Origin: Mariniflexile sp. AS56
Lineage (GTDB): Bacteria > Bacteroidota > Bacteroidia > Flavobacteriales > Flavobacteriaceae
Reading direction: 5' to 3'
NCBI RefSeq assembly: GCF_030552475.1
Contig: NZ_JAUPED010000003.1
Span: forward strand, 62,001-126,000
DNA length: 64,000 nt
Shown here: positions 2,839 through 47,957 of the stretch, piece after piece
Numbering within the stretch: the stretch's first letter is position 1
Layout of the letters: every line of letters begins with the position of its first letter
Made by a program: the position numbers and the translations under genes
The notes under the pieces: model-generated
What the model saw: the letters and a program-made list of their open reading frames with translations, nothing else
What the model was told of the DNA's origin: nothing
Database searches by the model: none

Positions 2839-2948
2839 AATGATTATGTTTTGTTCAGAACGTGAATTCTGTTTAGTTCGCTTTAAAGTAGGACGATTGT
2901 TTGTCTGATTTGTTACATGTTAAAAAAAATAACTATATTTTGTGATGC

Positions 2949-7767: not shown

Positions 7768-7860
7768 AGGGTTCTCTTTTTTTTGACAAAATTAACATTA
7801 CTTTTGTTGATTACTCAACAACTTTGTAATTTGCTGTCAAAATAATTCTAATTTTTAATA

Positions 7861-8514: not shown

Positions 8515-8612
8515 ATATTAATGAATTTAATGCTGCTATTCTTAAGTTTTCAAAATTTCAAAACTATCTTTGCAACATTAATAAAGGTAATAGGACACTG
8601 TAATATCGTTGA

Positions 8613-10129: not shown

Positions 10130-10412
10130 TGTTGCTTTTTGAAAATTTAAAGAAGGTGTAAGTGGTTTTTCGGGTTGTTTATTGGTTTTGAATAAAAGTA
10201 ATATTGTAAAATAATTACAGCCTTAAAAGTTAACTTGGTGCTTGAAAGCGCAAATATATAGTATTTAAGTGTTTTTTAGGAAGTAAAACGGTTTAATAAG
10301 CGAGATGTGTGGTTCTTCGTTTTATGATATAAATATTGGTATTTTTTTTAGTATTACACGTTCTTTTCATAATTTGCCATACTATTATAAATTCACATTT
10401 CAATAAATAATT

Positions 10413-23102: not shown

Positions 23103-23516
23103 ATGTCAAGTAAATTATCAATCCTGTTCATAGAAGACGATCTGGTCGAGACCATGAAAATGAATAGAACCGTAAGTAGGTTAGGCCCTTTTTATGATAT
23201 TCAAGAAGCAAAGAATGGAGAGGAAGCCTTAAGGATTTTAAACCTTAAAAAAAATCTTCCAGATATCATTTTATTAGATTTAAATATGCCTAAAATAAAT
23301 GGCATCGAATTTTTAAGAATTTTAAAAAATGATAAACAACTTAAATACATTCCCACTATTATTCTAACAACATCGAATAACAAAAGGGATGTTTTGGAAT
23401 GTTATAAAATAGGTATTGCAGGGTATATTTTAAAACCTTTGAAGTATGAAGATTATGTTTCGAAGTTAGAAAAAGTGTTGGCCTATTGGCGTGTAAATGA
23501 ATTAATAAAAGCATAA
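23103..23516 (+). CDS. single-domain response regulator
   Basis: A 137-residue CheY-like receiver without an output domain. Acidic pocket residues are E11, D12 and D13, and the phospho-acceptor is D59 in IILLDLNMP. The switch Thr lies in TIILTTS and the Lys in LKPL. The gene ends 1 nt before H-NOX, and the next genes follow without gaps, so it belongs to that operon. It may receive phosphate from the large kinase or from the HPt protein. Confidence 0.88.
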   Translation: MSSKLSILFIEDDLVETMKMNRTVSRLGPFYDIQEAKNGEEALRILNLKKNLPDIILLDLNMPKINGIEFLRILKNDKQLKYIPTIILTTSNNKRDVLECYKIGIAGYILKPLKYEDYVSKLEKVLAYWRVNELIKA

Positions 23517-23517
23517 T

Positions 23518-24057
23518 ATGAAAGGTATTGTTTTTACAGAATTTTTAGAATTAGTTGAACAAAAGTTTGGGTTAGAAATGGTTGATGAAATCATAGAGCA
23601 ATCTAATTTACCATCAAAAGGAGTTTATACTTCGATAGGTTCTTATGAGTTTTCTGAGATGCTTTCGTTACTAAAACAATTAAGTGAAAAAACGAATATA
23701 AGTATTGATGATTTGCTTTTAGTTTATGCCGAACATTTTTTCAGTGTTTTAGTGTCAACATATCCAACGGTTATAGAAAACTATAAAGACCCTATAGAGA
23801 TGTTAGCATCCATAGAAGATCATATTCATTTTGAAGTTCGTAAAATATACCCAGATGCCGAGTTGCCAAGCTTTGAGATTCAGGATAAAACAGAAAATTC
23901 ATTAGTTATGATATACAAATCAAGTCGTGCCATGTACTATTTTGGTCTTGGGTTAATGAATAAAACCTTTGAACACTTTAATTCGAGCGCCGAGATTATC
24001 ATGGAAAAATTAAAGGAAGATGGCACCGAAGTGAAATTTATTATTACTAAAAATTAA
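23518..24057 (+). CDS. H-NOX heme nitric-oxide sensor protein
   Basis: A 179-residue stand-alone heme-NO/O2-binding domain starting MKGIVFTEFLELVEQKFG. The proximal heme-ligand His is H104 in IHFEVRKIYPDAELPSF. The propionate-binding YxSxR motif is Y133, S135, R137. Aligning by eye with the Thermoanaerobacter tengcongensis H-NOX puts F142 where that O2-binding protein has distal Tyr140, so this one should be NO-selective. Bacterial H-NOX proteins usually control an adjacent histidine kinase or c-di-GMP enzyme. The kinase gene here starts on the last base of the stop codon. Confidence 0.92.
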   Translation: MKGIVFTEFLELVEQKFGLEMVDEIIEQSNLPSKGVYTSIGSYEFSEMLSLLKQLSEKTNISIDDLLLVYAEHFFSVLVSTYPTVIENYKDPIEMLASIEDHIHFEVRKIYPDAELPSFEIQDKTENSLVMIYKSSRAMYYFGLGLMNKTFEHFNSSAEIIMEKLKEDGTEVKFIITKN

Positions 24058-27265: not shown

Positions 27266-28009
27266 ATGACTAGTATAATAATAGATGACGAAGAAACAGC
27301 AAGAGCCATTTTAGGTAAATTGTGTTCAGATATTCAAAGTTTGGATGTTATTGAAGAGTTTTCGAACGCCATGGATGCCATTAAGTTTTTGAATAAAAAC
27401 GAAATTGATCTTATATTTCTAGATATTCATATGCCCGATTTTACGGGGTTCGATTTTATTCAAACCTTAAAAAGTCCACCAAAAATAATACTGACTACGT
27501 CTGATAAGAATTTTGCAATCGAAGCTTTCGAGTACGATTGTATAGTCGATTATTTAGTAAAACCATTAACAATGGCTCGATTTACAAAAGCTGTAAGTAA
27601 AGCGGAAGTGTTTAATGTAGATATAGAACCTGTTGAAGAAAGTACTGCAGGAGCGTCTCCATCATCAAAAGCAGCATCACAAATTAATGTTTCAGCAGAA
27701 AAAGAATTATTTGTAAATATTGATAGACGATTAATTAAAATTGATATCTCTAGTATTAAGCTAATTGAAGCAAAAGGAGACTATATTCTTTTAAAAACAG
27801 ATACACAAAATTATACAGTACACTCAACTTTAAAGAAAATTGTAGAAAAACTTCCAGATGCTCAATTTTTAAAAGTCCATAGGTCTTATGTTATAAATAC
27901 AGGCAAAATAATTGATATTGAGGATAATAGCGTCTTGATAGGTCGAGATGTGATACCTGTAAGCCGTTCAAATAGACCCGAATTAATGAGACGTCTTAAT
28001 TTACTTTAA
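27266..28009 (+). CDS. LytTR-family response regulator (first copy)
   Basis: A 247-residue regulator. The receiver domain (1-120) has D8, D9 and phospho-acceptor D53 in IFLDIHMP, with K in VKPL. A Ser/Ala-rich linker (about 125-150) follows. The LytTR DNA-binding domain (about 150-247) contains IKLIEAKGDYILLKTD, FLKVHRSYVINTGKI and VSRSNRPEL. It starts 9 nt after the HPt gene and ends the signalling operon proper. LytTR proteins often control surface and secreted products in bacteria. Confidence 0.92.
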   Translation: MTSIIIDDEETARAILGKLCSDIQSLDVIEEFSNAMDAIKFLNKNEIDLIFLDIHMPDFTGFDFIQTLKSPPKIILTTSDKNFAIEAFEYDCIVDYLVKPLTMARFTKAVSKAEVFNVDIEPVEESTAGASPSSKAASQINVSAEKELFVNIDRRLIKIDISSIKLIEAKGDYILLKTDTQNYTVHSTLKKIVEKLPDAQFLKVHRSYVINTGKIIDIEDNSVLIGRDVIPVSRSNRPELMRRLNLL

Positions 28010-28160
28010 TATATAGACGGTTTTCAATAAGCTTCAGTATTTATTTAAAGCTTATTTACTACTAGTCGTCTATCGATAACCGTAATCCATCGAAAAATTC
28101 TAATTTAAGTTCGACGAGTGGTTAATTTTAATTTTAAAGATAAAATTAAAAAACCGACAT

Positions 28161-28868
28161 ATGAACTGTATTATAATTGACGACGAAGCCACGGCAAGAA
28201 GTTTTTTAAACAAGCTCTGTACTAAAGTTAAAGACTTAAATGTAAAAAAAGAGTTTGATAATGCTAAAGATGCCCTAAAGTTTTTAGAGAACAATAAAAT
28301 AGATCTTATCTTTCTAGATCTGCACATGCCCGTACTTAGTGGGTTCGATTTTATAGAGGTTCTAGAACAGCAACCCAAAATTATACTAACAACTACCGAT
28401 AGAAATTCCGCACTCAAAGCCTTTGAGTATAAATGTATTGTCGATTATTTAGGCAAACCATTTAAAATGCCCCGTTTCTTGCTTGCTTTAGATAAAGTGA
28501 ACCGCGCCATTAAAATTTCAAAAGAACACGAAGAAAGTTTAAAAGATAGGTATGAAGCTTCAGATTTATATATAAACATTAATAAGAAGCTGGTTAAGTT
28601 TTCACTTGGTGCCATCGAAATTATAAAAACACACCCTAAAGGCATAGAGATTTGTACCAGTAAACAAAGCTTTGTAGTGAAATCATCCTTAAGTAAAATA
28701 ATAGATAAGCTACCTAAGTCTAAGTTTATCAAGGTACACCAGTCCTATATCATTAATATAAATAAGATAATAGATATAAAAAACGGACATATTTTAATTA
28801 ACCACGACAGTATTCCTGTTAGTAGAATGAACAAAGCAGAATTGATGAGTAAAATTAATTTATTCTAG
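28161..28868 (+). CDS. LytTR-family response regulator (second copy)
   Basis: A 235-residue paralogue of the upstream gene with the same layout. D53 lies in IFLDLHMP. The Lys region is YLGKPFKMP, and FIKVHQSYIININKI and VSRMNKAEL occur in LytTR. The receiver domains are clearly alike, but the LytTR domains diverge (for example KTHPKGIEICTS against EAKGDYILLKTD), so target sites may differ. A 151-nt gap with TCCATCGA at 28086-28093 precedes it, so it may have its own promoter. The gene is followed by the secreted-subunit gene. Confidence 0.9.
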   Translation: MNCIIIDDEATARSFLNKLCTKVKDLNVKKEFDNAKDALKFLENNKIDLIFLDLHMPVLSGFDFIEVLEQQPKIILTTTDRNSALKAFEYKCIVDYLGKPFKMPRFLLALDKVNRAIKISKEHEESLKDRYEASDLYININKKLVKFSLGAIEIIKTHPKGIEICTSKQSFVVKSSLSKIIDKLPKSKFIKVHQSYIININKIIDIKNGHILINHDSIPVSRMNKAELMSKINLF

Positions 28869-28966
28869 ATTTTGGTTCAACGACGAACTTGGCTTGTTAT
28901 CGTGTGTTTAAAAGCGTTTTGGGTCTATTCACCTACAGTTAACGTTTACTCATCGAAATAACGAGC

Positions 28967-28994
28967 TTGAAACTAAGACCTTAACATACATTTG
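28967..28994 (+). promoter_or_regulatory. predicted promoter of the secreted subunit gene at 29030
   Basis: TACATTTG at 28987-28994 is a perfect -7 box, with TTG at 28967-28969 17 nt upstream. CTCATCGA (28949-28956) and a reverse TTCGTCGT (28880-28887) lie just upstream and may bind a LytTR regulator. Confidence 0.55.
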
Positions 28995-29029: not shown

Positions 29030-29656
29030 ATGAAGAAAATTAACCTACTATTTATGGCAGCTTTAGCATTAGGAACAACAACTGCAATGGCTCAAGACAA
29101 TGATGACACAAACATTGATCAACACACTTTAGCTGTACAAGTACAGGAAGTTGCACTATTAGATATCTGGGATGCCAGTTTAGCAACTCCAGCCGATGTT
29201 GGAACTATTACTTTTGACATGGCCGACGCTACAACTAGTGGTATTAACGCTGAAGCAGGTATGTATGATTTTGGAGCATTAAGTTATACAGATTTGTATT
29301 TGAATTATACAAGTGTTGTATCAGCAGCCGATCCAACAAGAACCATTTCAGTACGTTTGTCTACAGGAAATTTTCCAGGAGGCGTTAGATTGGTAATTAC
29401 ACCAGAAACATCAACTGTTGAAAATGCAACAAACGGAACACCAGCAGATATTTCTGGAGGACCAATAACCTTAAACGCATCAGATTTAGGATCAAGCACA
29501 TCTAGAGTAATTGCAACTAACATACAAAGTGTATATAGTGGTGACGAAGCTTTTGGAGTGAAACTGGCTTATACTATCGAACAAGACGGAAATTTTGATC
29601 TATACATGGCAGGTAGTTATTCTACAGAGGTTGTTTATACATTATCTGATATCTAA
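29030..29656 (+). CDS. secreted beta-rich protein, putative major fibre subunit
   Basis: A 208-residue protein with a clean signal peptide (INLLFMAALALGTTTAMAQ). The mature chain is acidic, rich in Thr, Ala and Gly and predicted all-beta, with no cysteines. It ends in STEVVYTLSDI, an alternating hydrophobic strand of the kind seen in pilin and coat subunits. I find no named family. A dedicated promoter and the strong terminator downstream suggest high expression. Its place ahead of chaperone-like and usher-like genes supports the subunit idea, which is inference. Confidence 0.6.
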   Translation: MKKINLLFMAALALGTTTAMAQDNDDTNIDQHTLAVQVQEVALLDIWDASLATPADVGTITFDMADATTSGINAEAGMYDFGALSYTDLYLNYTSVVSAADPTRTISVRLSTGNFPGGVRLVITPETSTVENATNGTPADISGGPITLNASDLGSSTSRVIATNIQSVYSGDEAFGVKLAYTIEQDGNFDLYMAGSYSTEVVYTLSDI

Positions 29657-29687
29657 TCAACATATAATATCCAAACTTTTTAAAATA

Positions 29688-29717
29688 AAAAAAAGCCCTT
29701 CAATGGGGCTTTTTTTT
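29688..29717 (+). terminator. intrinsic terminator after the putative major subunit gene
   Basis: AAAAAAGCCC pairs with GGGGCTTTTTT around TTCAAT, followed by more T. Partial read-through here would let the subunit be made in excess over the downstream assembly genes. Confidence 0.85.
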
Positions 29718-29944
29718 ATGCACTTAGTTTAATGAACAATTACCAGATGTCAAATGCGGTAAATCGCTGGTTTTCCTTGTAAATACGGGCAATATGTGGC
29801 TTTTTATGAAAATCGTTTAAAGGCTAAAAATTACTACCGACCGACACTTACTTGCCACTTAACGAAATAGAACTAATTCTTGGGTAAAAGCCCATTTCTT
29901 TGTGAAACCGAAAGTGTATTAATAACAAATTTAAAAATCAAGAT

Positions 29945-30733
29945 ATGAAATCAATTGCATTAACATTTATAAGTTTCCTTTTTTGTGTTCAAGTAATACA
30001 AGCCAATGTTATTGTTTTAAATGGTCTTACGCATTCTTATTCAGGTGTGTCTGGTCAAACGTTCCAGGGGCAAGTTGTTTTAGCAAACACGTCTAACGTC
30101 GACCAGAGAGTGACTTTTAGTTTAAGTGAAGCGATTTATTCTTGTGATGCTGAAAGAGTATTTGCAGCAGATGTATTACATAAAAATTCGGCTACCAATT
30201 GGTTTGAAAGTTCTATCATGGATAAAGTGTTAGGGCCAAAAGAACGCTACATTTTTAAATATAATATCACGGTGCCAAACGACCAGGCTTTAAAAGGATC
30301 TTTCTGGACCACATTAATGATAAATGTTGAGAAGCCTATTTTAGAAGAGGTTGTAAGTGATTTTAAAATTGGAAGTAAAGTAAGATATGCGGTTCGTCTT
30401 TTAGCAGATGTAAATATTAATGATGATGTGCAATTAGATTTTGAAAGTGCAGATATTGTTTTAAATACGATAAGTACCACAAGACAACTTGATATTAAAA
30501 TTAGAAACCAAAACACGTTTATTGAAAACGTAAGATTGAGTTTAGAGTTTTACGATGTGTACGGAAATTTAGTTTTAGAAACTGAAACCAAGCGATTGAA
30601 GGCCTTTCCAGAAACCTGTAAAATATTTTCTTTAGATATATCGAAACTTCCAGTAGGAACTTACCAGTGTGTTGCAATTGTTGATTCTCGAGACGAGTAT
30701 GTTGGCACTAATTTAAGCTTAACCATAGACTAG
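29945..30733 (+). CDS. periplasmic Ig-fold chaperone-like protein
   Basis: A 262-residue protein with a signal peptide (SIALTFISFLFCVQVIQA). The domain near residues 30-120 (GQTFQGQVVLANTSNVDQRVTFSL, then VLGPKERYIFKYNITVPNDQALKGSF) has the strand pattern of a pilus-chaperone N-terminal Ig domain or of the DUF916/WxL-interacting domain. A second beta domain (about 160-255) contains LDIKIRNQNTFIENVRLSLEF. It lies between a small secreted subunit and the usher-like gene, as chaperones do in chaperone-usher clusters. The chaperone role is an inference. Confidence 0.6.
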   Translation: MKSIALTFISFLFCVQVIQANVIVLNGLTHSYSGVSGQTFQGQVVLANTSNVDQRVTFSLSEAIYSCDAERVFAADVLHKNSATNWFESSIMDKVLGPKERYIFKYNITVPNDQALKGSFWTTLMINVEKPILEEVVSDFKIGSKVRYAVRLLADVNINDDVQLDFESADIVLNTISTTRQLDIKIRNQNTFIENVRLSLEFYDVYGNLVLETETKRLKAFPETCKIFSLDISKLPVGTYQCVAIVDSRDEYVGTNLSLTID

Positions 30734-30786
30734 ATTAAATAAGCGCCTAGTAAAAAATTATTCGTTTTAACCAAAGCAAAAGAATC

Positions 30787-33700
30787 ATGACCAAAAACCT
30801 ACTTTTTATATTTATAGCTTCCTTTTTATATTTGGCTTGCGCCAAAGAGGCTCAGGAGGAAAAAGTGCTATTTGAGTCGATGCTTTTTGAAGATCAGCTT
30901 TGGAGTAGACAACAAGACTTAGTAACCTTTATAGAGGATAGCATAAAAGGTAATCGACAGAAATTAAACGATTTAAAGGGAAATAGCCCTTTAGTTACTA
31001 CACCAAAATCTAATAAAAATATACCTAAGAGACGAATTTCAAACATTAAGAAAAAAATACAAAACACAAATTACTTACCTACTTTAATAGATTCTACCAA
31101 TAAAAAAAATGTAACCAATAAGAATAAGACCTCTAATAGTGATAAAGCTTCTAATGTTCCTGTATCTGATACAAACACAAGTAACAAAACAACTAATGCT
31201 ACTTTAGTAGAAGGAACCCAGGATGCTAATAAGTCTGTAACCACGCAATCACCTAAATTAATTACAGGTGCGGCTGTTGTAGCTAATACAAATATTACAA
31301 GGAATACACCTGAAGTTGCCAAGGTTACAAAATTAAAGGATACGGTATTTGGTAAATCTAAAAAAGCTAGTAAAAAAGCGGCTTCAACTGATGCAACAAA
31401 GAAGGTAGAGAAAAAGAATATCCCAGAAGTATTACCAAAAACACCTAAAAACACTACTGAAACTGCCAAGGCTAACAAATTAAAAGATACTGTACTTAAT
31501 AAGACGAGTAATAATGCTAGTAAAACGGCTTCAAACGACATAAAAAAAGAAGTAAAAGATGTTTCAGAAACTAAAAAAGTATCTGAAACAATTTCTAATA
31601 ATAACAAACCAAGTTCCGTTTCGATTCAAGAAGGCGTTGTTAACCCAACGGGAGATTTATCATTAAATGACGAGGTTGATTCTGAAACAATTACGTATGA
31701 AATTCCTGAAAAGGAAAGACGTGTTGCGGCTTTATTTACAGACCCAAGTGCTCATAATAAAAGGGCAAAAAGAACGGTTACCGTGGTGAAAAATAAACCT
31801 AAAACGGCGCCAATTACAGCAGCAATAACTAAAAAAGCAGTAGCTAAAAAAATTGTAACTGTTCCTGTTGTAGAACCAGTAGTAGAAAAAGAAACTGAAA
31901 AACCAATAAGTAATAATTTGAATACCAATCAGGTGGCTTTAGCAAAACCTGTTTTAGAATCAAATATTCCAACAACTATAGATGTACCAACAAAAAAGCC
32001 AGAAAAAAAGGTTGCTAAAGTAACCGTTTTAAAGAATAAAACAATTGAAAGCTTAGAGATACCAAGCATAAAAAGCAATATTACAACTAATAATAAGGCC
32101 ATAAATACGGCGAACAATATCACCGCTGGCGATTTGTCTATTCGTTTATTAAGAAAAGAAAGCACCTACCAAACAAACAAAAACTACACACTTTTAGTAG
32201 AGGTTTTAAATAATGGTGACGCTATCGACCCTATAAAATTAGAGACTATTTTACCAACCGATTGGAAAGTTATTTCTATTAGTGCCTTAGGATCTCTGGG
32301 TACAAACGAGCGTAAACTTGTTATGATTAGCTTTTTTATTCCAGCAGAAAGTTTGTCTGGAACAACCCAAAGCACCTTAATTTTAAAATCGAATAATTAT
32401 ATTTTACATGAACATACTTTTGATTTAGTGGTTGCTAAAAATTACGAATTAGAGGTGTTTAATATCTCTGGCGCTCAACAAATACAGGCAGGAGAAACTT
32501 TTAAAGCCAAATTTGGTGTACGTAACAATGGTAATGTAGACCAGGAAGTTGTTTTAGAGTCTAGAAACTCAATTAAAGGAAGTACCATTCTGGTAATACC
32601 CAGAGATTCTACGGTTGTGGTAGAAGTGTTGCAAAAATCAGATTCTAAATTAAATATGTTTAGAACCTATTCTGCGAATTTAGATGTGTTGGGTAGAATT
32701 TCAAATCAGAAATACTATAACTCGCAATCTTACGAGGTGATTCCTACTAAAATCACTCAAAAGGATCCTTATTTAAGATACCCTATTAGAGCGAGTTTAT
32801 ATTACAATAGTTATACAAATCAATCCACGCATTATTCAACATTATCTGCAGAACTTATGGGAAATGGGTATTTGGATGAAGCACGCGATCATCATTTAAA
32901 TTTTACCTTTCGAGCTCCGAAACAGGAAGATATTAGAAGGTTTAGTATTGTAGATCAATATAGTTTAATTTATCGCTACAAGAATAAAACCGAATTGTAT
33001 TTGGGCGACCATTCTTATAATCATAATAGATTGGGCTTTACTTCAAGATACGGAATGGGTTTTAAATTAAGTCATACTATTGACAAATGGACCTTGTCTA
33101 CATTTTATAGCAAACCAAGATTGTATAGCTATAACAGAAAAGCTTTGTTTGGTGTAAGAGCAGATTATAATTTATCTGATAACCAGAATGTAGGGCTTAC
33201 GCTTGAAAGATCTCAAGGAAATATTTATACTTACAGAAATATTTATAATATTGATGGTAAAGGACAAATTGCCACTTTAGATTATGATTTTGAAGATAAA
33301 AACACCTCGTTAAGTTTAGAAATGTCAACCAGTTTTAATGGTTCGAAAGCGGGATATGCAACAGATATAAATTTCAACCAAGGAATTGGCGATTTTAGAT
33401 ATAACAGTGCTATTATTTATGCAGGTAAAGATTATTTCGGAAAACTGTCTAATAGTTTTCAATTTTCAAATAGCTTGTATTTTTATAAAAAAGGATTCAA
33501 TGCGGGCTTCGGTCACTCGTTTTCACAAGTTAATAGACGTTTAGATCCGCTTTTATTCGAAACAGAACCTTACTACGAGAATTATTTCGCAACCGTAGGT
33601 TATAGATTTACAAATAAACATTACTTCAGCTTTCGATTTGATAAAAGAGAAAGGGAAGATCAATTAGAACCTAAAAACTATCATTATGGAGAATATGGCG

Positions 33701-34776
33701 TTAATTATAATTTTGTGTACACTGATAAGTTGTTCACTGGAAGTTTTGGTGGCCGCTTTGGTAAAACCGAAAACAAACTGGTTGCCAATAGCAGTTATAG
33801 AAATACCTATTCAAACAATTTAAATGTTTCTTATAAACTGTTTAAAAACTTTAGTTTAAGAGGTGGTTTAAACCATATTTATACTTCTAGATATGGAACT
33901 ACTTACGAGAATATTAGTTTTGTACGCTATAATGTTGGTGTTAACCATAGAATAAGTAGAAATTTAAGGTTTAATGCTAATTATAATAGTGGCTTTAGTC
34001 CAGAAGAGAGTTACAAGCAAAGAGAATATATTAATTTCAATTTGGTAGCTCAACTTAGTTCGCATCATCGTTTAGAAATGCGTGCAAATTATTTTGAAAG
34101 ACCAGGCATAGTGGACCAAAAAGAGCTGTTCGCTTACGCTAAATACACTTATTCGTTTGGTGTTGGTGTTAAGAAGATTATTGAGCAAGGTGGTGTAGAA
34201 GGAGCTGTTTTTACAAATAACAGTGATATAGATGTGACCGGTATAAAATTATACAGTGCAGGTAAAACCATTGTAACAGATAAAAATGGAAACTTTGAAA
34301 TTAATAACTTACCAGTAGGTACTAATTACCTTTTTATAGACGATGAATCTTTACCATTAAATGTGGTTTCAATGAATAAGAAACCTATTGAAATTGAAAT
34401 TCAAGAAAACAGAAAAGCAAGTTTAAATATAGAATTAGTAAAAGCAGGTACCGTAGTTGGGAAACTAGTGTTAAACAACATACTTAATGTTATTGAATCT
34501 AATTTAGAGAGTTATGTGAAGTTAGAAAATGAAAATTTCACTTATTATGCTGAAGCGAGTAAAGAAGGGAATTTCAGATTTAGAAACATTGTTCCAGGAG
34601 AATATACGTTTACTTTAATTCGATTTAAGAAAAATGAAAAGTTCTTTAGTCTAGTAAAAGAAACAAACGTAACTGTGAAACCAGAAGTAGGAACCGAATT
34701 AAATATAACAGTGAACGGTAAAGAGAAGAAAATTAAATTTAAAGATACTAACTTAAAAGTAGGCTATAATGAGTAA
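30787..34776 (+). CDS. usher-like outer-membrane beta-barrel lipoprotein with repetitive N-terminal region
   Basis: A 1329-residue protein. Its start has a lipobox with the lipidated Cys at C18 (LYLACAKE). Residues about 60-460 are a low-complexity Lys/Thr/Asn/Ala-rich segment with repeated KLKDTV units. Two Ig-like domains (about 465-560 and 565-655) follow. A 450-residue Tyr/aromatic-rich region of alternating strands (about 665-1130) looks like a large barrel. Two carboxypeptidase-regulatory-like domains (about 1140-1210 and 1220-1300) close it. Barrel followed by such plug-type domains recalls fimbrial ushers, but it is no classical FimD/PapC. It overlaps the next gene by 8 nt. Confidence 0.6.
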   Translation: MTKNLLFIFIASFLYLACAKEAQEEKVLFESMLFEDQLWSRQQDLVTFIEDSIKGNRQKLNDLKGNSPLVTTPKSNKNIPKRRISNIKKKIQNTNYLPTLIDSTNKKNVTNKNKTSNSDKASNVPVSDTNTSNKTTNATLVEGTQDANKSVTTQSPKLITGAAVVANTNITRNTPEVAKVTKLKDTVFGKSKKASKKAASTDATKKVEKKNIPEVLPKTPKNTTETAKANKLKDTVLNKTSNNASKTASNDIKKEVKDVSETKKVSETISNNNKPSSVSIQEGVVNPTGDLSLNDEVDSETITYEIPEKERRVAALFTDPSAHNKRAKRTVTVVKNKPKTAPITAAITKKAVAKKIVTVPVVEPVVEKETEKPISNNLNTNQVALAKPVLESNIPTTIDVPTKKPEKKVAKVTVLKNKTIESLEIPSIKSNITTNNKAINTANNITAGDLSIRLLRKESTYQTNKNYTLLVEVLNNGDAIDPIKLETILPTDWKVISISALGSLGTNERKLVMISFFIPAESLSGTTQSTLILKSNNYILHEHTFDLVVAKNYELEVFNISGAQQIQAGETFKAKFGVRNNGNVDQEVVLESRNSIKGSTILVIPRDSTVVVEVLQKSDSKLNMFRTYSANLDVLGRISNQKYYNSQSYEVIPTKITQKDPYLRYPIRASLYYNSYTNQSTHYSTLSAELMGNGYLDEARDHHLNFTFRAPKQEDIRRFSIVDQYSLIYRYKNKTELYLGDHSYNHNRLGFTSRYGMGFKLSHTIDKWTLSTFYSKPRLYSYNRKALFGVRADYNLSDNQNVGLTLERSQGNIYTYRNIYNIDGKGQIATLDYDFEDKNTSLSLEMSTSFNGSKAGYATDINFNQGIGDFRYNSAIIYAGKDYFGKLSNSFQFSNSLYFYKKGFNAGFGHSFSQVNRRLDPLLFETEPYYENYFATVGYRFTNKHYFSFRFDKREREDQLEPKNYHYGEYGVNYNFVYTDKLFTGSFGGRFGKTENKLVANSSYRNTYSNNLNVSYKLFKNFSLRGGLNHIYTSRYGTTYENISFVRYNVGVNHRISRNLRFNANYNSGFSPEESYKQREYINFNLVAQLSSHHRLEMRANYFERPGIVDQKELFAYAKYTYSFGVGVKKIIEQGGVEGAVFTNNSDIDVTGIKLYSAGKTIVTDKNGNFEINNLPVGTNYLFIDDESLPLNVVSMNKKPIEIEIQENRKASLNIELVKAGTVVGKLVLNNILNVIESNLESYVKLENENFTYYAEASKEGNFRFRNIVPGEYTFTLIRFKKNEKFFSLVKETNVTVKPEVGTELNITVNGKEKKIKFKDTNLKVGYNE

Positions 34777-35350
34777 AAATATAAAGAACATAATGTTTTG
34801 TAGTTTCTTGTTAACCGCATTTCTTGGGGTTGCTCAAGAAACCGCAAACGGATCGGATGTTAATAGTTTTATTATTGGTGGTGGACAAGAGTTTACAGAA
34901 TCCAGTGTATTCGTAAATTCTGTAGCTATTTTAGATGTGTATACTATTGGCGGCGGCGGTGGCGGCGGCGGTACTGTTTTTGAGGCAGGTATGCCTTTTA
35001 GTGCTGGTGCTGGCGCTATGCCAGAAGTTTGGTTGAATTATACCTACAGACCTATTGACCCTAATGATGAGTCCGAAATTTTTGTAAGGTCCAGCCATCC
35101 CATTCCTGCTGGAATTGATATAGAAGCTCGGGTTATTGAAGTGAGTTCAGGAGGTGACTTTGTCGATAGAGGTGAAAATGGTAATTTCTCTATAGATGAA
35201 AACAATGGTAAAATTGTTAAAAGTTTTGGTGCTGGTTATACAGATGATGGTGAAACTAATGGGTATAAAATAGAATACACATTTTCCAATTCTGGGACAG
35301 AATCTTTACCAGCAGGGTTTTCAATTATTTATGAAATTATAAAAAAGTAG
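34769..35350 (+). CDS. secreted protein, putative minor subunit with an eight-Gly run
   Basis: A 193-residue protein with a signal peptide ending at GVAQ. A run of eight glycines near residues 61-68 is encoded by GGC/GGT codons, unusual in this AT-rich genome, and is followed by TVFEAGMPFSAGAGAMPEVW. The rest is predicted beta and ends in YEIIKK. The start overlaps the usher-like gene by 8 nt, so the two are translationally coupled. I recognise no family. A role as minor or tip subunit is a guess from position. Confidence 0.55.
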   Translation: MSKNIKNIMFCSFLLTAFLGVAQETANGSDVNSFIIGGGQEFTESSVFVNSVAILDVYTIGGGGGGGGTVFEAGMPFSAGAGAMPEVWLNYTYRPIDPNDESEIFVRSSHPIPAGIDIEARVIEVSSGGDFVDRGENGNFSIDENNGKIVKSFGAGYTDDGETNGYKIEYTFSNSGTESLPAGFSIIYEIIKK

Positions 35351-35355
35351 AATTC

Positions 35356-35961
35356 ATGAAAAGATATTTATATAGCATTCTATTTCTAGTAACATTGCAA
35401 TATGCTAACGGTCAAGTACAAGATGGGACTTTGGTAATTACGGGCTCACCTAGTTTTTCACAATCTGCAGCAACTCAAGAAGCTGGTTTAGACGATTCTG
35501 AGAATATTATAGGTTCCTTAGACCCGTTGGTTACTTTTATTTTAAATGAAACCATAAACCCGGTTACCGGAGATACAACATCTAGAGAGCAAAACTGTGA
35601 AACGGTTTATTTGTATAAAGTGTTTATGCATACCAGCAATATGCCCGCAGGCACCATTATAAAAGCAAAAACCTTTGATAATAGTGGCAGTAGGTTTCCT
35701 TTAGTGAGTAATTATGATGGGTTGCCACCTTCTGGTAAATATTTTGGTGATAGAGATTTAGTGGCAGAAACCAACGGTGCAGATATTGATGGTTTTATTA
35801 CAATTCCTGATGATGGAACGGTAGCTATTAAAGTTTTTGAGTTTAAAGGCTGTAGAGAAGATATTCCAGTAGAGTTTCGGGTAACTCCAAGTGTAGGCAC
35901 ACCTTCTGGTACAAGTAATTTTCAAGTGTATTATACCATTACTGCAGAGCCTTTTAGTTAA
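35356..35961 (+). CDS. secreted protein, putative minor or tip subunit
   Basis: A 201-residue protein with a signal peptide (MKRYLYSILFLVTLQYANGQ). The mature chain is predicted all-beta and has two cysteines (REQNCETVY and EFKGCREDI) that could form a disulfide. It ends FQVYYTITAEPFS, the same kind of alternating C-terminal strand as the 29030 product. It starts 5 nt after its neighbour, the last of the operon. The repeat remnant with a terminator at 36110-36151 may end this transcript. Confidence 0.55.
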   Translation: MKRYLYSILFLVTLQYANGQVQDGTLVITGSPSFSQSAATQEAGLDDSENIIGSLDPLVTFILNETINPVTGDTTSREQNCETVYLYKVFMHTSNMPAGTIIKAKTFDNSGSRFPLVSNYDGLPPSGKYFGDRDLVAETNGADIDGFITIPDDGTVAIKVFEFKGCREDIPVEFRVTPSVGTPSGTSNFQVYYTITAEPFS

Positions 35962-36081
35962 CATCCGTCTTGTAGAAATAATAATAATAATAAATAAGTT
36001 GGTACCATTAATCGCTTAGAATGTGTATTTAAATTGGAAATATGATAGCATTTTTAGTTTTTCGAAGCTAAATTAAAATTT

Positions 36082-36151
36082 CCTAAGTTGATTAATAGCC
36101 AATTTAGTTAACTCATTTCTTTTTTATTTATAAAAAAGGGTGAGTTTTTTT
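36082..36151 (+). terminator. 3' remnant of a repeat unit, acting as terminator
   Basis: TAAGTTGATTAATAGCCA matches the 3' part of the array units at 37620 and 38027. The terminator-like hairpin at 36110-36151 resembles theirs. The promoter half is missing or too degenerate to see. It lies about 120 nt after the last fibre-cluster gene and would terminate that operon. Confidence 0.55.
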
Positions 36152-36436
36152 AATCAAACTAAAGTAAGTCGTTATGTTATAATGGGTAGTTAAAGCTTTC
36201 GTTTATAAAATAAAATATATAGTATTACCCTACTTCAGGAACTATTTTAGTGTGGTAGGAGTTTCGTTTTTAGTATTTTAAATAACTGTTTTACAGTTGT
36301 TTATATGGGAGTGTTCTTGAGTTTAATTTGTTTGTAGAACAACTTAACAAGGGAATGCGTTCATTGACCCGTAGATTAGCTTTGCTAGTCTAAAATGTCA
36401 ATTAAGAGGCCCCAATCAGTCGTATATTTGAAGTAT

Positions 36437-36553
36437 ATTAACCGATACTAATTAGCCTTTTTTTGCCCCCGCTTAAAAGAGAACTTAACCTAACCAGACA
36501 ATAGTCCTGATATTTACTCATTCTTTTCTCCTAGAGGAAGAATGAGTTTTTTT
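36437..36553 (+). ncRNA. array sRNA unit 1
   Basis: The -7 box is TATATTTG at 36423-36430, and the transcript start is estimated 7 nt later. The body has the box TTTTTTTGCCCCC at 36458-36470. The terminator stem ACTCATTCTT pairs with AAGAATGAGT by Watson-Crick pairs, 36516-36553. Upstream, the CTTCAA arm present in the other units is absent. Estimated length is about 117 nt. Confidence 0.6.
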
Positions 36554-36782
36554 ATGCCATTCATGAAAGGAACTGGCTTCAAATTTACAGGTGTTTTCTT
36601 CAATCGAATTTTAATTTTGTTTGTTATTTAGGTGTTATATTCCTGTTTGTTAGCTATTTATGTTTTAACGTTATAAGTGGAAAAACGGTTGAACGCTGCA
36701 TGGAGTTCATTTAACTATACTTGGTCCTGTTTAATCGAAAATGTAATCAAAAACCTTCAAATCGGTCGTATATTTGAAGTAT

Positions 36783-36897
36783 AATAACCGAATATATTGA
36801 GCCTTTTTTGTCCCAAACATTAAAATATAACTCAACCAGATTAATAGCCCAAATCTCAGCTCATTCTTTTTCCTACTAAAAAGAATGAGTTTTTTTT
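36783..36897 (+). ncRNA. array sRNA unit 2
   Basis: The -7 box is TATATTTG at 36769-36776. The C-rich box is weaker (TTTTTTGTCCC). A short TTGAG/CTCAA stem can enclose the box. The terminator CTCATTCTTTTT/AAAAAGAATGAG is fully Watson-Crick (36859-36897) with eight T after it. Confidence 0.6.
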
Positions 36898-37158
36898 ATG
36901 TCCTTACTATTTAGATCAATTTCCAAATTAAAAGCACATTTCAAAATGGTGCGTCTCCTACAATATGTTTTTTCAATTTTAAAGATTTAATAAAGTAGTG
37001 AGTTATGTGCTTGTGAAATAGTTAATTATGTAGGTTTTATTCGTTATTTCTAATTAAAAGACAGTTTAACGCTACAATAGGTTCGTTTAACTACACATTA
37101 GCTTAGCTAGTCTAAAATGAGCGTAAAAACTTTCAAATGCGTGGTATCTTTGAAGTAT

Positions 37159-37281
37159 AGAAACCGAAAACATATAACCTTTTTAAATCCCAATTTAAAA
37201 ATAACAATATAGTCTAAGTTGATTAATAGCCAGTTTAGTTTGCTCATCCTTTTTTGATTATAAAAAGGGTGGGTTTTTTTT
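37159..37281 (+). ncRNA. array sRNA unit 3 (C-box degenerate)
   Basis: The -7 box is TATCTTTG at 37145-37152. The C-rich box is degenerate (TTTTTAAATCCC), so this copy may have altered function. The 3' half (TAAGTTGATTAATAGCC) matches units 4 and 5. The terminator CTCATCC/GGGTGGG stem lies at 37243-37281. Confidence 0.55.
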
Positions 37282-37567
37282 GTACTAATTTTATGTCTAG
37301 GGCGGCCACTCATGGACTTTAGCGTACATGGTGAGTAGTTATGTACACTTGATCCTGTAAGGCTTATTAATAGCGTTTATAATGGGTGTGTATGCTGTCT
37401 TTATGTGGTTGATTTATGGTGTGTTAGGTAATTTGTTTCTGTTTAAGGCCTGTTCTTAATGTTTGAATCCCCTCTTAACGGTTCAACGAGTTCATTTAAC
37501 TATACATGACCTCTGCCAATCTAAAATGTAAATAAAAACCTTCAACCGTATTGTATCTTTGAAGTAT

Positions 37568-37689
37568 AATAACCGAAACGAATCAACTTTTTTGCCCCAG
37601 CATAAAAATTATAATAAACTAAGTTGATTAATAGCCAATTTAGCAAACTCATTCTTTTTTTAATTTAAAAAAAGGGTGGGTTTTTTTTT
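37568..37689 (+). ncRNA. array sRNA unit 4
   Basis: The -7 box is TATCTTTG at 37554-37561. AATCAACTT upstream of the box pairs with AAGTTGATT downstream of it, so the TTTTTTGCCCC stretch lies in the loop. The terminator is CTCATTC/GGGTGGG with three G-U pairs, 37648-37689. It is nearly identical to unit 5, including its upstream spacer. Confidence 0.65.
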
Positions 37690-37974
37690 GTGCTAATTTT
37701 ATGTCTAGGGTGTCTACTCATGGGCTTTAGTGTACATGGTGAGTATTATGTACACTTGATCCTGTAAGGCTTATTAATAGCGTTTATAATGGGTGTGTAT
37801 GCTGTCTTTATGTGGTTGATTTATGGTGTGTTAGGTAATTTGTTTCTGTTTAAGGCCTGTTCTTAATGTCTGAATTCCCTCTTAACGGTTCAACGAGTTC
37901 ATTTAACTATACATGACCTCTGCTAATCTAAAATGTAAATAAAAACCTTCAATCGTGTTGTATCTTTGAAGTAT

Positions 37975-38093
37975 AATAACCGAAACGAATCAACTTTTTT
38001 TGCCCCCGCATAAAAAATATAATAAACTAAGTTGATTAATAGCCAATTTAGCAAACTCATTCTTTTTTACTTTAAAAAAGGGTGGGTTTTTTT
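37975..38093 (+). ncRNA. array sRNA unit 5
   Basis: The -7 box is TATCTTTG at 37961-37968. It has the full TTTTTTTGCCCCC box and the same AATCAACTT/AAGTTGATT loop-presenting hairpin as unit 4. The terminator lies at 38056-38093. By eye the 404 nt from 37690 are about 95% identical to the preceding unit, so this is a recent tandem duplication. Confidence 0.65.
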
Positions 38094-38298
38094 CTTTTAC
38101 GGTAATATGGAGTTGTTAATTTATTATAGAGGAAGGAAGTGTTTAAGTTTCTTTAAATGAGTTGTTTGATGTGTTTTTGGCTGTTTGGTAGTCGTGGTGG
38201 CAACTAAACAATAGAACAGGTTCATTTAACTATATATTAGCTTGTTTTTATCTAAAATGTAAATAAAAACTTTCAAATATGTTGTGTCTTTAAAGTAT

Positions 38299-38426
38299 AG
38301 TAATCGAAACCTATGAGCCTTTTTTTGCCCCCGCATAAAGAATATAATTAAACCTATACTGATCAAATTTCACCCAAGTGTTAATTAGCTCACTCTTTTT
38401 CCCCATAAAAAGAGTGGGCTTTTTTT
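38299..38426 (+). ncRNA. array sRNA unit 6 (degenerate -7 box)
   Basis: The -7 position reads TGTCTTTA at 38285-38292, off consensus at two conserved positions, so activity may be low. The TTTTTTTGCCCCC box is intact. The terminator GCTCACTCTTTTT/AAAAAGAGTGGGC (38388-38426) has a changed base pair relative to other units, compensated on the other arm. Confidence 0.5.
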
Positions 38427-38690
38427 CTTTAAAAGCTTATGCATGTGCTTTGTGTAAATTTTGATAGATGGATCGACTAACAAATGTCGTGTCTTTTATT
38501 TAGTTTACGAGTCTTTTTGCTAGGTGTCTGGCTGTTCGTTAATTAGTCTAGTGGTATGTGTTGGTTCCAGGAGTTTTATTTTTAATGTTAGAACGGCTTG
38601 TCGGCTTAAGGTGTTCATTTATCTAAACATAGTCTTATTTAATCTGAAATGTAAATAAAAACCTTCAAATATATTGTATCTTTGAAGTAT

Positions 38691-38816
38691 AGTAATCGAA
38701 ACCTATAAGCCTTTTTTTGCCCCAGCATAAAAAATAAAATACAACGTAACCCACAAAATTTTCCTGAAGTGTTAATTAACTCATTCTTTTTCTCGTAAAA
38801 AGGATGGGTTTTTTTT
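38691..38816 (+). ncRNA. array sRNA unit 7
   Basis: The -7 box is TATCTTTG at 38677-38684. The box is TTTTTTTGCCCC. Its 3' half (GAAGTGTTAATTAACTCATTC) resembles unit 6 rather than units 3-5. The terminator at 38779-38816 pairs CTCATTC with GGATGGG through two G-U pairs. Confidence 0.6.
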
Positions 38817-39180: not shown

Positions 39181-39681
39181 TTAATTGGTCGCTTTTACAA
39201 AAATATTGGTGAAGTACCATCTGCCATTTTCATCTTGCTCTGCGCTTATACTAAAATGGGTATGGTTTCCTTCTATGTTCAATTTATGGCCGTCACTTCT
39301 TAACCAAGCACTTACAACCGATTCTGCTTTGGTGTAACCATAAGCCACGTTTTCTGAAACCTTCTCTGCATTCGCATGGGCTATTAAATAACTTTTTCTG
39401 TTAAAAAAATTATCATGAGAAGCAGAACTGTTGTTAATCATGTATTGGGTGTGGCTGTTGGTTTGGGTTCTTATTTGTTCATTTTGAATTAAAGAAGTCA
39501 AGCCTATAGAAACACGGTGGGCATTAATTAAATCTAGAATTTCAATTTCTATAGATTTAATACTGTTTAAAGTAGTCACTTTTTCTATAGTTGCAGTGTC
39601 GTTGTCTGTCGCTTCAGTAGAACAAGAGGTTATTGTGAAACTGGCGATCATTAAGTAGGTAATTATATATAGGTTTTTCAT
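39181..39681 (-). CDS. CAP/SCP-domain lipoprotein
   Basis: A 166-residue protein. The N-terminal signal ends in a lipobox (IASFTITSCSTE, Cys at 20). The CAP domain has LDLINAHRVSIGLTSL, SHTQYMINNSSASHDNF, SENVAYGY and VVSAWLRSDGHKLNIEGNHTHF, with the two family His residues. Bacterial SCP proteins are extracytoplasmic and their activities are largely unknown. It is a single gene between the sRNA array and the laminarin locus. Confidence 0.85.
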   Translation of the reverse strand: MKNLYIITYLMIASFTITSCSTEATDNDTATIEKVTTLNSIKSIEIEILDLINAHRVSIGLTSLIQNEQIRTQTNSHTQYMINNSSASHDNFFNRKSYLIAHANAEKVSENVAYGYTKAESVVSAWLRSDGHKLNIEGNHTHFSISAEQDENGRWYFTNIFVKATN

Positions 39682-39987: not shown

Positions 39988-42270
39988 TTATTCTATATTG
40001 AACTTAGATTCTAACACGGTTTTAGAACTTCCACCAACATACACTTTAAAGTCACCTGGTTCTAAAACAAAATCGCCTGTATTGTTGAAGAACCCTAACT
40101 CATCTTTTGTTAAATTAAAATGAATGGTTTCTTGTTTATTTGGGCTTAATTCAATCATTTCAAATCCTTTTAACTCTTTTACAGGTCGTGTTACGCTTGC
40201 AAATAAATCTTGAATATAAAGCTGAACTACTTCTTTTCCTGTAACGCTTCCTGTGTTTTTAACATCCACAGAAACCTTAAACGTATCATTTGAAACCTTA
40301 TCAATTACTAAATTACTGTATGAAAATGTTGTGTAGCTAAGTCCATGCCCAAAAGCATATAGTGGGTCGTTGCTTTCATCTATATAATGCGACCAAAATA
40401 CTTCATTTGGAGCAGGAATTATTGGGCGTCCCGTATTTTTATAATTGTAATAAATAGGCACTTGCCCCACATGTCTAGGGAAAGACATGGGTAGTTTTCC
40501 GCTTGGGTTATAATCACCGTATAAAACTTCCGCAATTGCATTACCACTTTGCGTTCCTAAATGCCAAGCTTCTACAATAGCTGGGATGTGTGTATCTGCC
40601 CAGGTAATGGTTAAGGGGCGTCCGTTATTTAACACTAAAACAATGTTTTTATTAACCTTGTAAATAGCTTCAAGAAGTTCTTGCTGCACGCCTGGTAAAT
40701 TTAAATCGGTTCTGCTTCTGGCTTCTCCACTTTGAAAGCCATGTTCTCCCAACACCATAACCACGACATCTGCTTTTTTAGCGGCTGCTATGGCTTCAGG
40801 GAATTCACTTGTATCTTCCGTGTTAATTTTAAGTTCTATGGCGAATTCTGCTTTCCCGATAGCTAAATCGGCGCCTTTGGCGTACGTTAATTTGTTGCCT
40901 GTATATTTTTGCAAGCCTTCTAAAACGGATACAGCTGTGTTGTCATCTGCAGCAATACGCCAGCTTCCTAACGGACTTGTTTTATCTGCAGCCAATGCAC
41001 CTATTAAGGCAATATGCTGACCTTCTTTTTTAAGCGGAAGTAATTGATTCTCGTTTTTTAATAAAACGATAGATTTTTTAGCAACATCTAAAACCGCTTC
41101 ATGAATAGCTGGGCTTCCGGTAACTTCTTTTTCATAATCTTCGTTACAATATTTATAAGGATCATCAAAAAGACCTAATTCAAATTTTACTTTTAAAATA
41201 CGTGTCACCGCATCGTCTATAAGTGATTCTTTTACTTTCCCTTCTCTAACTAAATTTGCTAATTCATCCACATAGGCATAAGACTCCATGTCCATATCAG
41301 AACCAGCAATGGCTGAAAGTTCCGCAGCATGTTTTCTGTCCTTGGCATAGCCGTGAGCAATCATTTCGTTCATAGACCCCCAATCGGACACTACAAAACC
41401 ATCAAAACCCCATTTTCCTTTTAAAATATCACGTTGTAGATACACGTTACCCGTTGCCGGAATCCCGTTTAATTCATTAAAAGAGTTCATAAATGTTTTA
41501 ACACCAGCATCTGTAGCTGCTTTAAATGGCGGAAAAATGATGTTATTTAAGGTTGAAGTTCCAATGTCTACCGTGTTGTAATCTCTACCAGCTTCCGCAA
41601 AACCATAACCAGCCCAGTGTTTTGCACAGGCAGCAATGGTTTCATGAGATGCTAAATCGTCTCCTTGAAAACCGTGTATTCTTGCTACTGCAATTTTTGA
41701 ACCTAAATAAGGGTCTTCACCAGCACCTTCCATAACACGTCCCCAACGGGCATCTCTAGAAATGTCTACCATAGGCGCAAACGTCCAGTTAATTCCTGCT
41801 GCAGCCGATTCTTTTGCTGCAACTTGAGCCGATTTTTTAATAGCTTCCAAATCCCAACTTGCTGCTTCAGCTAATGGAATAGGACTTAAGGTTTTATAAC
41901 CATGAATCACATCAAAACCAATTATTAAGGGGATACCTAGTCGGGTTTCTTCAACGGCTACTTTTTGTACAGCTCTTACTTCTTTTACACCTCGTACATT
42001 CAGCATCGAACCAACGTAGCCCTTTTTTAAATGGTCATACTTTTTAGCGGCATCTCCTGCAGCTGGTTTTGGGCCTGTAACATCCCAAAAACCGTTGTAT
42101 TGATTCATTTGTCCAATTTTTTCTTCCAAAGTCATTTTGGCTAGTAAATCGGCTACTTTATTATCTATGCTGTTTGTATTACCCGCAAAATCATTTGAAA
42201 TGGCTTCTTTACAAGAAACGTTTAGAATTAGTAAAATAACGAGTAAGTTGTATAAGTTGTTTTTGTTCAT
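39988..42270 (-). CDS. bglX: glycoside hydrolase family 3 beta-glucosidase, lipoprotein
   Basis: A 760-residue exported lipoprotein (VILLILNVSCKEA, Cys20). The N-terminal TIM-barrel has FAPMVDISRDARWGRVMEG and GEDPYLG. The nucleophile Asp sits in GFDGFVVSDWGSM. The second domain has VVVMVLGEHGFQSGEARSR, and a fibronectin-III-like C-terminal domain ends the protein (VSVDVKNTGSVTGKEVVQLY). It is closest in layout to BglX. With GH16 upstream it probably releases glucose from laminari-oligosaccharides at the surface or in the periplasm. Confidence 0.9.
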   Translation of the reverse strand: MNKNNLYNLLVILLILNVSCKEAISNDFAGNTNSIDNKVADLLAKMTLEEKIGQMNQYNGFWDVTGPKPAAGDAAKKYDHLKKGYVGSMLNVRGVKEVRAVQKVAVEETRLGIPLIIGFDVIHGYKTLSPIPLAEAASWDLEAIKKSAQVAAKESAAAGINWTFAPMVDISRDARWGRVMEGAGEDPYLGSKIAVARIHGFQGDDLASHETIAACAKHWAGYGFAEAGRDYNTVDIGTSTLNNIIFPPFKAATDAGVKTFMNSFNELNGIPATGNVYLQRDILKGKWGFDGFVVSDWGSMNEMIAHGYAKDRKHAAELSAIAGSDMDMESYAYVDELANLVREGKVKESLIDDAVTRILKVKFELGLFDDPYKYCNEDYEKEVTGSPAIHEAVLDVAKKSIVLLKNENQLLPLKKEGQHIALIGALAADKTSPLGSWRIAADDNTAVSVLEGLQKYTGNKLTYAKGADLAIGKAEFAIELKINTEDTSEFPEAIAAAKKADVVVMVLGEHGFQSGEARSRTDLNLPGVQQELLEAIYKVNKNIVLVLNNGRPLTITWADTHIPAIVEAWHLGTQSGNAIAEVLYGDYNPSGKLPMSFPRHVGQVPIYYNYKNTGRPIIPAPNEVFWSHYIDESNDPLYAFGHGLSYTTFSYSNLVIDKVSNDTFKVSVDVKNTGSVTGKEVVQLYIQDLFASVTRPVKELKGFEMIELSPNKQETIHFNLTKDELGFFNNTGDFVLEPGDFKVYVGGSSKTVLESKFNIE

Positions 42271-42272
42271 AA

Positions 42273-43382: not shown

Positions 43383-43452
43383 GTGGTCTGTTTTTAATAT
43401 TCACATTTAAACAGGGAGATTGTTTCACTCCCTACCTAAATATGGCTAAATA

Positions 43453-44355: not shown

Positions 44356-44367
44356 CTTTTTTGAATT

Positions 44368-46455: not shown

Positions 46456-46466
46456 ATCTTATTTTT

Positions 46467-47948: not shown

Positions 47949-47957
47949 AATACCTAA

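Follow-up and report, generated by a model that had tools for sequence, protein, structure and literature searches.

Seven tandem genes for predicted small RNAs beside an H-NOX/LytTR signalling block in Mariniflexile sp. AS56

Introduction

Small RNAs (sRNAs) that are encoded in several copies and controlled by a response regulator are known from other phyla and with other regulators than those treated here, e.g., the CiaR-controlled csRNAs of streptococci and the LuxO-controlled Qrr RNAs of vibrios. In Listeria monocytogenes, LhrC1-5 are multicopy sRNAs, each copy with its own promoter and all of them dependent on LisRK (PMC4132741). Residues at about -55 to -75 are needed for their induction, the loops carry UCCC motifs, the lapB adhesin mRNA is a target, and the sRNAs pair at a G-rich site that precedes the start codon (PMC4132741). 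Here, an array of seven homologous units is described in a 64,000-nucleotide stretch of Mariniflexile sp. AS56 (Flavobacteriaceae; contig NZ_JAUPED010000003.1, positions 62,001 to 126,000), hereafter called the window. Judged from the sequence, the units are probably phosphorelay-controlled multicopy sRNAs that work like the LisRK-LhrC system.

The array resembles LhrC in its multiple copies, in the promoter of each copy, in C-rich loops and in two-component control, the last being proposed for the array. It differs in phylum and regulator class, and LhrC copies, as they are presented in that report, are nearly identical, whereas the array bodies have diverged. No LhrC match was found in the array at the Rfam cut-off or to E 5, with the inclusion of the LhrC model in the library unchecked. 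To our knowledge, LisR has no LytTR domain. Within Bacteroidota, FopS/GibS of Bacteroides thetaiotaomicron is likewise a paralogous family of terminator-bearing sRNAs, with 14 members, a 5' single-stranded R1 seed, RbpB binding, targets in polysaccharide utilization loci and a structure that is stated to be deposited in Rfam; no tandem array or LytTR control was found in the accessible text of that report, and the word “tandem” is absent from its main text (PMC11697453). Rfp18 of Flavobacterium psychrophilum is a regulatory sRNA of Flavobacteriaceae whose -7 consensus (TAnnTTTG, located at -12 to -5) agrees with that of the array; as far as the accessible text of the report goes, it is a single sRNA needed for protease expression, with no array or LytTR control (PMC9723704). 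Membership of the array in LhrC or FopS is not claimed.

An array of noncoding-RNA genes

The seven units, listed by the initial annotation from direct reading, are borne out at the place given. They span 36359-38816, with start-to-start distances of 346, 376, 409, 407, 323-324, and 392-393 bp. In each, an upstream block and a -7 box precede a noncoding transcript, predicted at 116-131 nt, with its terminator. Transcript starts were placed by the published flavobacterial rule, with TAnnTTTG at -12 to -5 (PMC9723704). A sequence-only profile built from the units gives 131-151 bits for each of them, values that are high by construction; the next match in the window (37 bits, E 1.4e-10) is a remnant at 36023-36151, which had been noticed before with an extent, 36082-36151, that was too short. 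The -7 box is TAnnTTTG in six of the seven units and degenerate in unit 6 (TGTCTTTA), as annotated. The C-rich box, initially ascribed to all units, is CCCCC or CCCCA in five of them and only CCC in units 2 and 3.

Mean pairwise identity among the units reaches 0.76 in the operator/promoter, 0.63 in the body, and 0.75 in the terminator, and that of the 150-bp upstream spacers (0.41) is near random (shuffled spacers, 0.33), which agrees with the earlier impression that promoter and terminator are kept and bodies and spacers vary. Units 4 and 5 are nearly identical, part of the spacer included (97% over 260 nt), and represent a recent duplication. The absence of protein genes also holds: there is no open reading frame (ORF) of at least 80 amino acids (aa) between 35961 and 39181, the longest closed ORF within the predicted transcripts has 23 codons and a TTG start, and the sole closed ATG ORF, in unit 6, has 12. 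The array thus has the predicted make-up of multicopy sRNA genes, i.e., homologous noncoding genes with a promoter (its -7 box degenerate in unit 6) and an intrinsic terminator each, and the proposed family of small RNAs of about 120 nt fits the predicted lengths.

Profile and DNA searches of the own genome found the array at one place and no further copies; the only other profile match (C1, 24 bits) falls within a 520-aa ORF. None of the 4227 Rfam models searched matched the array at cut-off, and matches of PyrR, mir-190, and OrzO-P (E 0.5-4.7) were taken for chance.

An operator common to the array and its neighbours

The upstream block of the units resembles a direct-repeat operator of the form CTACAGT, N13, TCGAAA, N27-28, TAnnTTTG. 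Operators of this type also precede the operon of a fibre cluster in the window, the gene of a second LytTR response regulator (LytTR 2), and genes adjoining orthologous LytTR regulators in many Flavobacteriaceae. LytTR proteins such as AgrA, ComE, and AlgR bind direct repeats with about two helical turns between the half-sites. The fibre promoter, next to a LytTR gene, has the direct repeat CTACAGT-N13-TCGAAA with a period of 21 bp, and this combination of a nearby regulator and a repeat of about two turns marks it as a predicted member of a LytTR regulon. In the window's units, a TCKAAAATG-like block is followed, after exactly 25 bp, by the -7 box.

The operator was evaluated in LytTR loci of the family. 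A LytTR orthologue (E 1e-50 or better) is present in 157 of 397 family genomes, from which 40 LytTR loci were surveyed; the choice was non-random, most of them being top-ranked and some being added because they have fibre genes or come from Tenacibaculum. Of the 40, 28 have a strict WCKAAW site that is correctly spaced and lies outside ORFs of 70 aa. Across 46 loci (these 40, five Tenacibaculum array loci, and L025), WCKAAW lies 33/34 bp before TAnnTTTG in 65 sense-strand cases vs about 1.7 per other distance, with 3 on the antisense strand; array copies make these matches dependent on each other. A matrix was then trained on 34 sites, all in promoters closely preceding an ORF of at least 70 aa and none from the window. 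Of 20 held-out LytTR loci, among them one of just 1.9 kb and the same-genus G004, 14 showed a sense-strand site at score 6 and 1 an antisense-strand site. In the window, a score of at least 4 was reached only before LytTR 2 (18.2), before the fibre operon (29.8), and in units 1-5 and 7 (6.3-17.1), with no site at this score on the other strand. Among the 34 training sites were the LytTR 2 and fibre promoters of a related genome, G044, orthologous to those of the window, as well as other fibre promoters and a possible RNA unit (L116:1456). The matrix was retrained on 23 sites, without L116:1456 and without genomes carrying fibre genes. It detected 14 of 20 held-out loci in sense vs 0 of 20 in antisense and, among 291 + 261 boxes of the window, assigned a score of at least 2 only to LytTR 2 (13.2), the fibre promoter (23.6), and units 3, 4, and 5 (4.6-9.4). 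One block is common to the units, 6/7 of which reach score 6 with the first matrix and 3/7 score 2 with the second. A genome-wide search for CWACAGT-N13-TCGAAA-N28-TAnnTTTG gave a single perfect match, at the fibre promoter; two mismatches separate unit 2 from the pattern, and three separate unit 3.

The predicted transcripts

The predicted transcripts, terminator included, fold better than dinucleotide shuffles in six of seven units (z -2.1 to -4.1); unit 7 does not (z -0.7). A small hairpin whose loop contains CCC is possible in every body. When the units and the G044 unit are aligned by hand, 60 of 72 cells of the hairpin arms are paired; the loop-closing pair is kept by double changes in units 2 and 3 and in G044, and the next pair is broken in G044.

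Relatives of the array

Profile and DNA searches found the unit in none of five other genomes of the genus. Only G004 in this group has a closely related LytTR orthologue, at 69% vs 41% at best in the others; with 12.5 kb searched, no matrix site at score 6 was found downstream of this gene (L140). Among the 397 family genomes, six candidates being scored per genome, one further full-length match was obtained, in G044, which belongs to another genus (L025:9763-9946, 50.7-50.8 bits over the full model); because of the limit to six candidates, diverged relatives such as those of G133 were missed. The G044 transcript alone matches the window bodies with E 3.1e-08. The gene order in G044 is that of the window: kinase, HPt-like, LytTR, second LytTR-type gene, fibre genes, unit, and a CAP gene on the opposite strand; for the second regulator and the fibre genes, the correspondence was established from position and translation rather than from Pfam. 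The LytTR protein of G044 is 81% identical to that of the window (LytTR 1), the last fibre genes share 67% and the CAP proteins 61% identity, and the G044 orthologue of LytTR 2 is preceded by the same operator site. The unit of G044 starts about 50 bp past the last fibre stop codon; the decayed window copy sits at about the same place, which suggests that a founder copy may have lost its promoter after duplication. Past the CAP gene, G044 has two more operator-driven candidate units (L025:11389 and 11688). Two other matches of the family search, which overlap an ORF start (G273) or straddle two (G062), were judged by eye to be chance; G287 was a further match, and a match in G339 led to an array in Tenacibaculum.

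In a collection of 84,980 genomes, the exact unit pattern (with GAAGTRTA) occurs in two records, both Tenacibaculum, as three- and two-copy arrays with a different RNA. With up to two mismatches allowed, 9 of 97 Tenacibaculum genomes have matches at 10 places, five of which lie within or just before protein genes and five of which are intergenic units in four genomes (G339, G485 twice, G504, and G419). The Tenacibaculum arrays have 2 to 11 units with the same operator, and several stand directly behind the same relay. The largest, in G485, has 11 units, counted by -7 boxes, within a 3.2-kb stretch that contains no ORF of 100 aa (L054, reverse strand, 7450-10640), and directly follows genes for a response regulator, a PAS kinase, an HPt protein, and a LytTR regulator that is 66% identical to LytTR 1. 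In G504, three units follow H-NOX (HNOB, beside the kinase), kinase, and LytTR genes; one unit follows HPt-like and LytTR genes in G419, and at least four follow a LytTR gene in G339. In loci L054, L055, L056, L042, L043, and L127, with their 2 to 11 units, at least two body types can be distinguished, and most terminators have CCCC, TCCC, or CTCCC loops. Two types of place are seen, one behind LytTR and the other between a 120-aa gene and a pair of 131-aa and 339-aa genes.

Of the 40 surveyed LytTR loci, five (G065, G133, G356, G088, and G339) contain operator-driven candidates that show a terminator-like hairpin and are followed by no gene. The operator also precedes genes beside the regulator that encode CAP proteins (L093, L099) or DUF6923/Por-tail proteins (L093, L091). 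Downstream of LytTR in G215 (L094), G137 (L098), and G382 (L104), about 3-9 tandem TTTTTTCATAGCAAnTTTAGTTGGTTATT repeats, counted by eye, and a GC-rich hairpin were noticed; no promoters of their own are visible, and they stand behind a LytTR-site promoter or a gene driven by it. They are possibly a polycistronic relative of the arrays. In 13 related loci, Rfam at cut-off gave no family that matches the arrays; tRNAs and Flavo-1 RNA were found elsewhere in these loci only.

Genomic neighbourhood

Features of the window are collected in Table 1. The SusCD locus pointed out in the initial annotation is real, with SusD and TonB-receptor domains: beyond the CAP gene, the minus strand (39988-50981) has a GH3/GH16/PKD/SusD/TonB-receptor locus of the polysaccharide-utilisation type. 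The informative neighbours are nevertheless the fibre operon and the H-NOX/kinase/HPt-like/LytTR block, because the operator type is shared with the units. The assignment of the HPt-like protein draws on Hpt matches below cut-off, in the window and in G044 (E 0.0067), and the gene at the same position in G485 is above cut-off (E 2.6e-08). “Fibre” is the word of the initial annotation; Pfam domains above cut-off occur only in the 1329-aa protein of the cluster and are of SpaA/CarboxypepD_reg type. The minus strand of the window, which carries the CAP gene adjoining the array, has no operator site. A Flavo-1 RNA (RF01705, 50.2 bits) lies at 2933-3020.

Table 1. Coordinates of the array, of the genes around it and of operator-bearing stretches in related loci (window positions unless a locus is given; transcripts and operators are predictions)
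Feature	Position	Strand	Details
Single-domain response regulator, first gene of the signalling block	23103..23516	+	Pfam Response_reg, E 5.5e-22
H-NOX (haem-NO-binding) protein	23518..24057	+	Pfam HNOB, E 3.1e-40
PAS/GAF sensor histidine kinase, 958 aa	24057..26933	+	Pfam PAS, GAF, HisKA, HATPase_c
HPt-like phosphotransfer protein, 106 aa	26936..27256	+	Pfam Hpt below cut-off, E 0.048
LytTR response regulator 1, proposed activator	27266..28009	+	Pfam LytTR, Response_reg
Operator and degenerate promoter of LytTR 2	28063..28130	+	matrix 18.2; 13.2 without fibre-carrying genomes in training
LytTR response regulator 2	28161..28868	+	Pfam; 48% identical to LytTR 1
Fibre-operon operator and promoter	28926..28994	+	zero mismatches to own-genome pattern; matrix 29.8, or 23.6 with stricter training
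Fibre cluster (208, 262, 1329, 193, 201 aa)	29030..35961	+	ORFs
Decayed eighth copy	36023..36151	+	without operator, terminator intact; 37 bits, model positions 64-199
Unit 1	36359..36553	+	operator/promoter 36359-36434, transcript 36435-36553
Unit 2	36705..36896	+	operator/promoter 36705-36780, transcript 36781-36896
Unit 3	37081..37282	+	operator/promoter 37081-37156, transcript 37157-37282
Unit 4	37490..37688	+	operator/promoter 37490-37565, transcript 37566-37688
Unit 5	37897..38093	+	operator/promoter 37897-37972, transcript 37973-38093
Unit 6	38220..38427	+	operator/promoter 38220-38296 (-7 box degenerate), transcript 38297-38427
Unit 7	38613..38816	+	operator/promoter 38613-38688, transcript 38689-38816
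CAP-domain protein, conserved far flank of the array	39181..39681	-	Pfam CAP; 61% identical to neighbour of the G044 unit
Operator-bearing CAP/DUF6923 stretches	L093:1582-4821; L099:1682-2206; L091		four proteins put to Pfam

A proposed mechanism and the alternatives

The gene structure, the operator type held in common with the fibre operon and LytTR 2, and the association with the relay can be read from the DNA; from these we infer transcription, activation by LytTR 1, the signal, the mode of pairing, and the targets. It is proposed that the H-NOX/PAS kinase/HPt-like block phosphorylates the LytTR protein encoded at 27266, the most likely activator, in response to nitric oxide or another haem ligand, a signal suggested by the H-NOX domain of the block. 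Phosphorylated LytTR would bind the direct repeat with a 21-bp period about 54 to 28 bp upstream of the -7 box and thereby jointly activate the fibre operon, LytTR 2, and the RNAs, so that one sensor system may turn on both the fibre operon and the RNA array. Seven paralogous noncoding-RNA genes of 116-131 nt, each with its own TAnnTTTG promoter and intrinsic terminator, would then be expressed, the tandem arrangement of copies giving a higher RNA dose. Most likely, these RNAs would act in trans, with the C-rich hairpin loop pairing with G-rich sites in mRNAs. A further difference from LhrC, which pairs ahead of the start codon, is that flavobacteria are reported to be without Shine-Dalgarno sequences (PMC9723704).

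Several results weigh against this proposal. Regarding the operator, unit 6 fails both matrices (score -6.6 with the 23-site training), units 1, 2, and 7 drop under 2 with the latter training, and 12 of the 40 surveyed LytTR loci are without a strict site. The own-genome pattern with up to three mismatches gives 12 matches vs 11 for a reversed control, so weak matches in the own genome are meaningless. Regarding the transcripts, the hairpin test is modest, since as much pairing as observed arises in 864 of 40320 rearranged arm sets with G044 and in 336 of 5040 without it, and RNAalifold on the whole body supports the terminator only. CCC runs are expected from composition, being present in 405-499 of 500 dinucleotide shuffles, and the Tenacibaculum bodies are not detectably homologous to those of the window; the best match (E 0.47) joins the CCC hairpin of the window and a Tenacibaculum terminator hairpin. 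The C-rich loop found on both sides is therefore a resemblance and not a test. Target prediction near the array gave nothing convincing, and for six genes (fibre, both LytTR, CAP, GH3, and the SusC-type receptor at 50981) the predicted pairing of two unit loops was no better at the gene start than in internal gene segments. Finally, G107 and G321 have fibre genes, and no unit was found in them by the model.

Alternatively, the repeated hairpins could act as RsmY/RsmZ do, by sequestering an RNA-binding protein rather than by base-pairing to mRNA. The multiplicity of the units and their small hairpins with a common loop would suit such a sponge, as would the repeat arrays of G215, G137, and G382, which lie near LytTR genes and have no visible promoters, and the comparison with Rsm is also drawn in the LhrC report (PMC4132741). 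However, the bodies differ among lineages, which a single protein ligand should resist; we consider this explanation unlikely.

Another possibility is that the DNA itself is functional, as an array of extra LytTR sites that titrates the regulator off the fibre promoter, with the RNAs as by-products. It is in line with this that the operator/promoter is the most conserved part while the bodies vary, and that several units score weakly (6.3-7.8, with units 1, 2, and 7 below 2 under the stricter matrix), as low-affinity decoys might. A decoy, however, needs neither -7 box nor terminator, yet both are kept at fixed positions (one -7 box being degenerate), and the transcript is conserved in the G044 locus; a purely DNA-based function is regarded as quite improbable.

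The relation to FopS, left undecided in the initial annotation, receives no support. Paralogous, terminator-bearing sRNAs do occur in Bacteroidota, and the GH3/GH16/SusD/TonB-receptor locus starts about 1.2 kb past the array on the opposite strand, so that repression of SusC genes of polysaccharide loci by RNAs of the FopS/GibS type might be envisaged. However, no Rfam family at cut-off and no FopS match to E 5 was found, the FopS model perhaps not being among the 4227, and pairing with the start of the gene at 50981 was no better than in the controls. The described members, moreover, are nine intergenic RNAs, four antisense RNAs, and one 3' untranslated region RNA with a 5' single-stranded seed (PMC11697453), and this explanation is regarded as very improbable. 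The least probable view, that the units are functionless relics of a mobile or repetitive element, could appeal to the partly recent duplication (units 4 and 5, 97% over 260 nt) and to one decayed copy, but the spacers have diverged to near-random and operator and terminator have not, and the mobile element that had been named as a possible refutation is opposed by the single place in the genome, the lack of an exact match of the promoter pattern in viral contigs, and the syntenic homologue in another genus.

Conclusions

The phosphorelay-controlled multicopy sRNAs proposed here are of a kind that is already known, i.e., multicopy sRNAs under a two-component system. The coupling to LytTR and H-NOX, the size of the array, and the different bodies under one operator appear to be new; in listings of the open-licence literature on flavobacterial tandem sRNAs, on LytTR with small RNA, and on Tenacibaculum sRNA, no such arrays were found described. 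Beyond the window, it is a tentative generalization, held with somewhat less than even confidence, that the H-NOX/kinase/HPt/LytTR relay of Flavobacteriaceae carries tandem sRNA genes whose operator is preserved and whose bodies are replaced by lineage. The arrays would then be evolving RNA outputs of one surface-fibre, possibly nitric-oxide, switch, and the body types perhaps to be distinguished under this reading are that of the window and G044, at least two in Tenacibaculum, and that of G133.

Post-transcriptional control in Flavobacteriaceae is little mapped (compare the transcriptome study PMC9723704). Here, a compact circuit is gathered in a single 16-kb island: sensor block, candidate operator, surface-protein operon, and paralogous RNAs. 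Used as a search key, the operator has already brought to light arrays with as many as 11 units in another genus. If the proposal is true, the locus links haem-gas sensing, surface fibres, and sRNA dosage.

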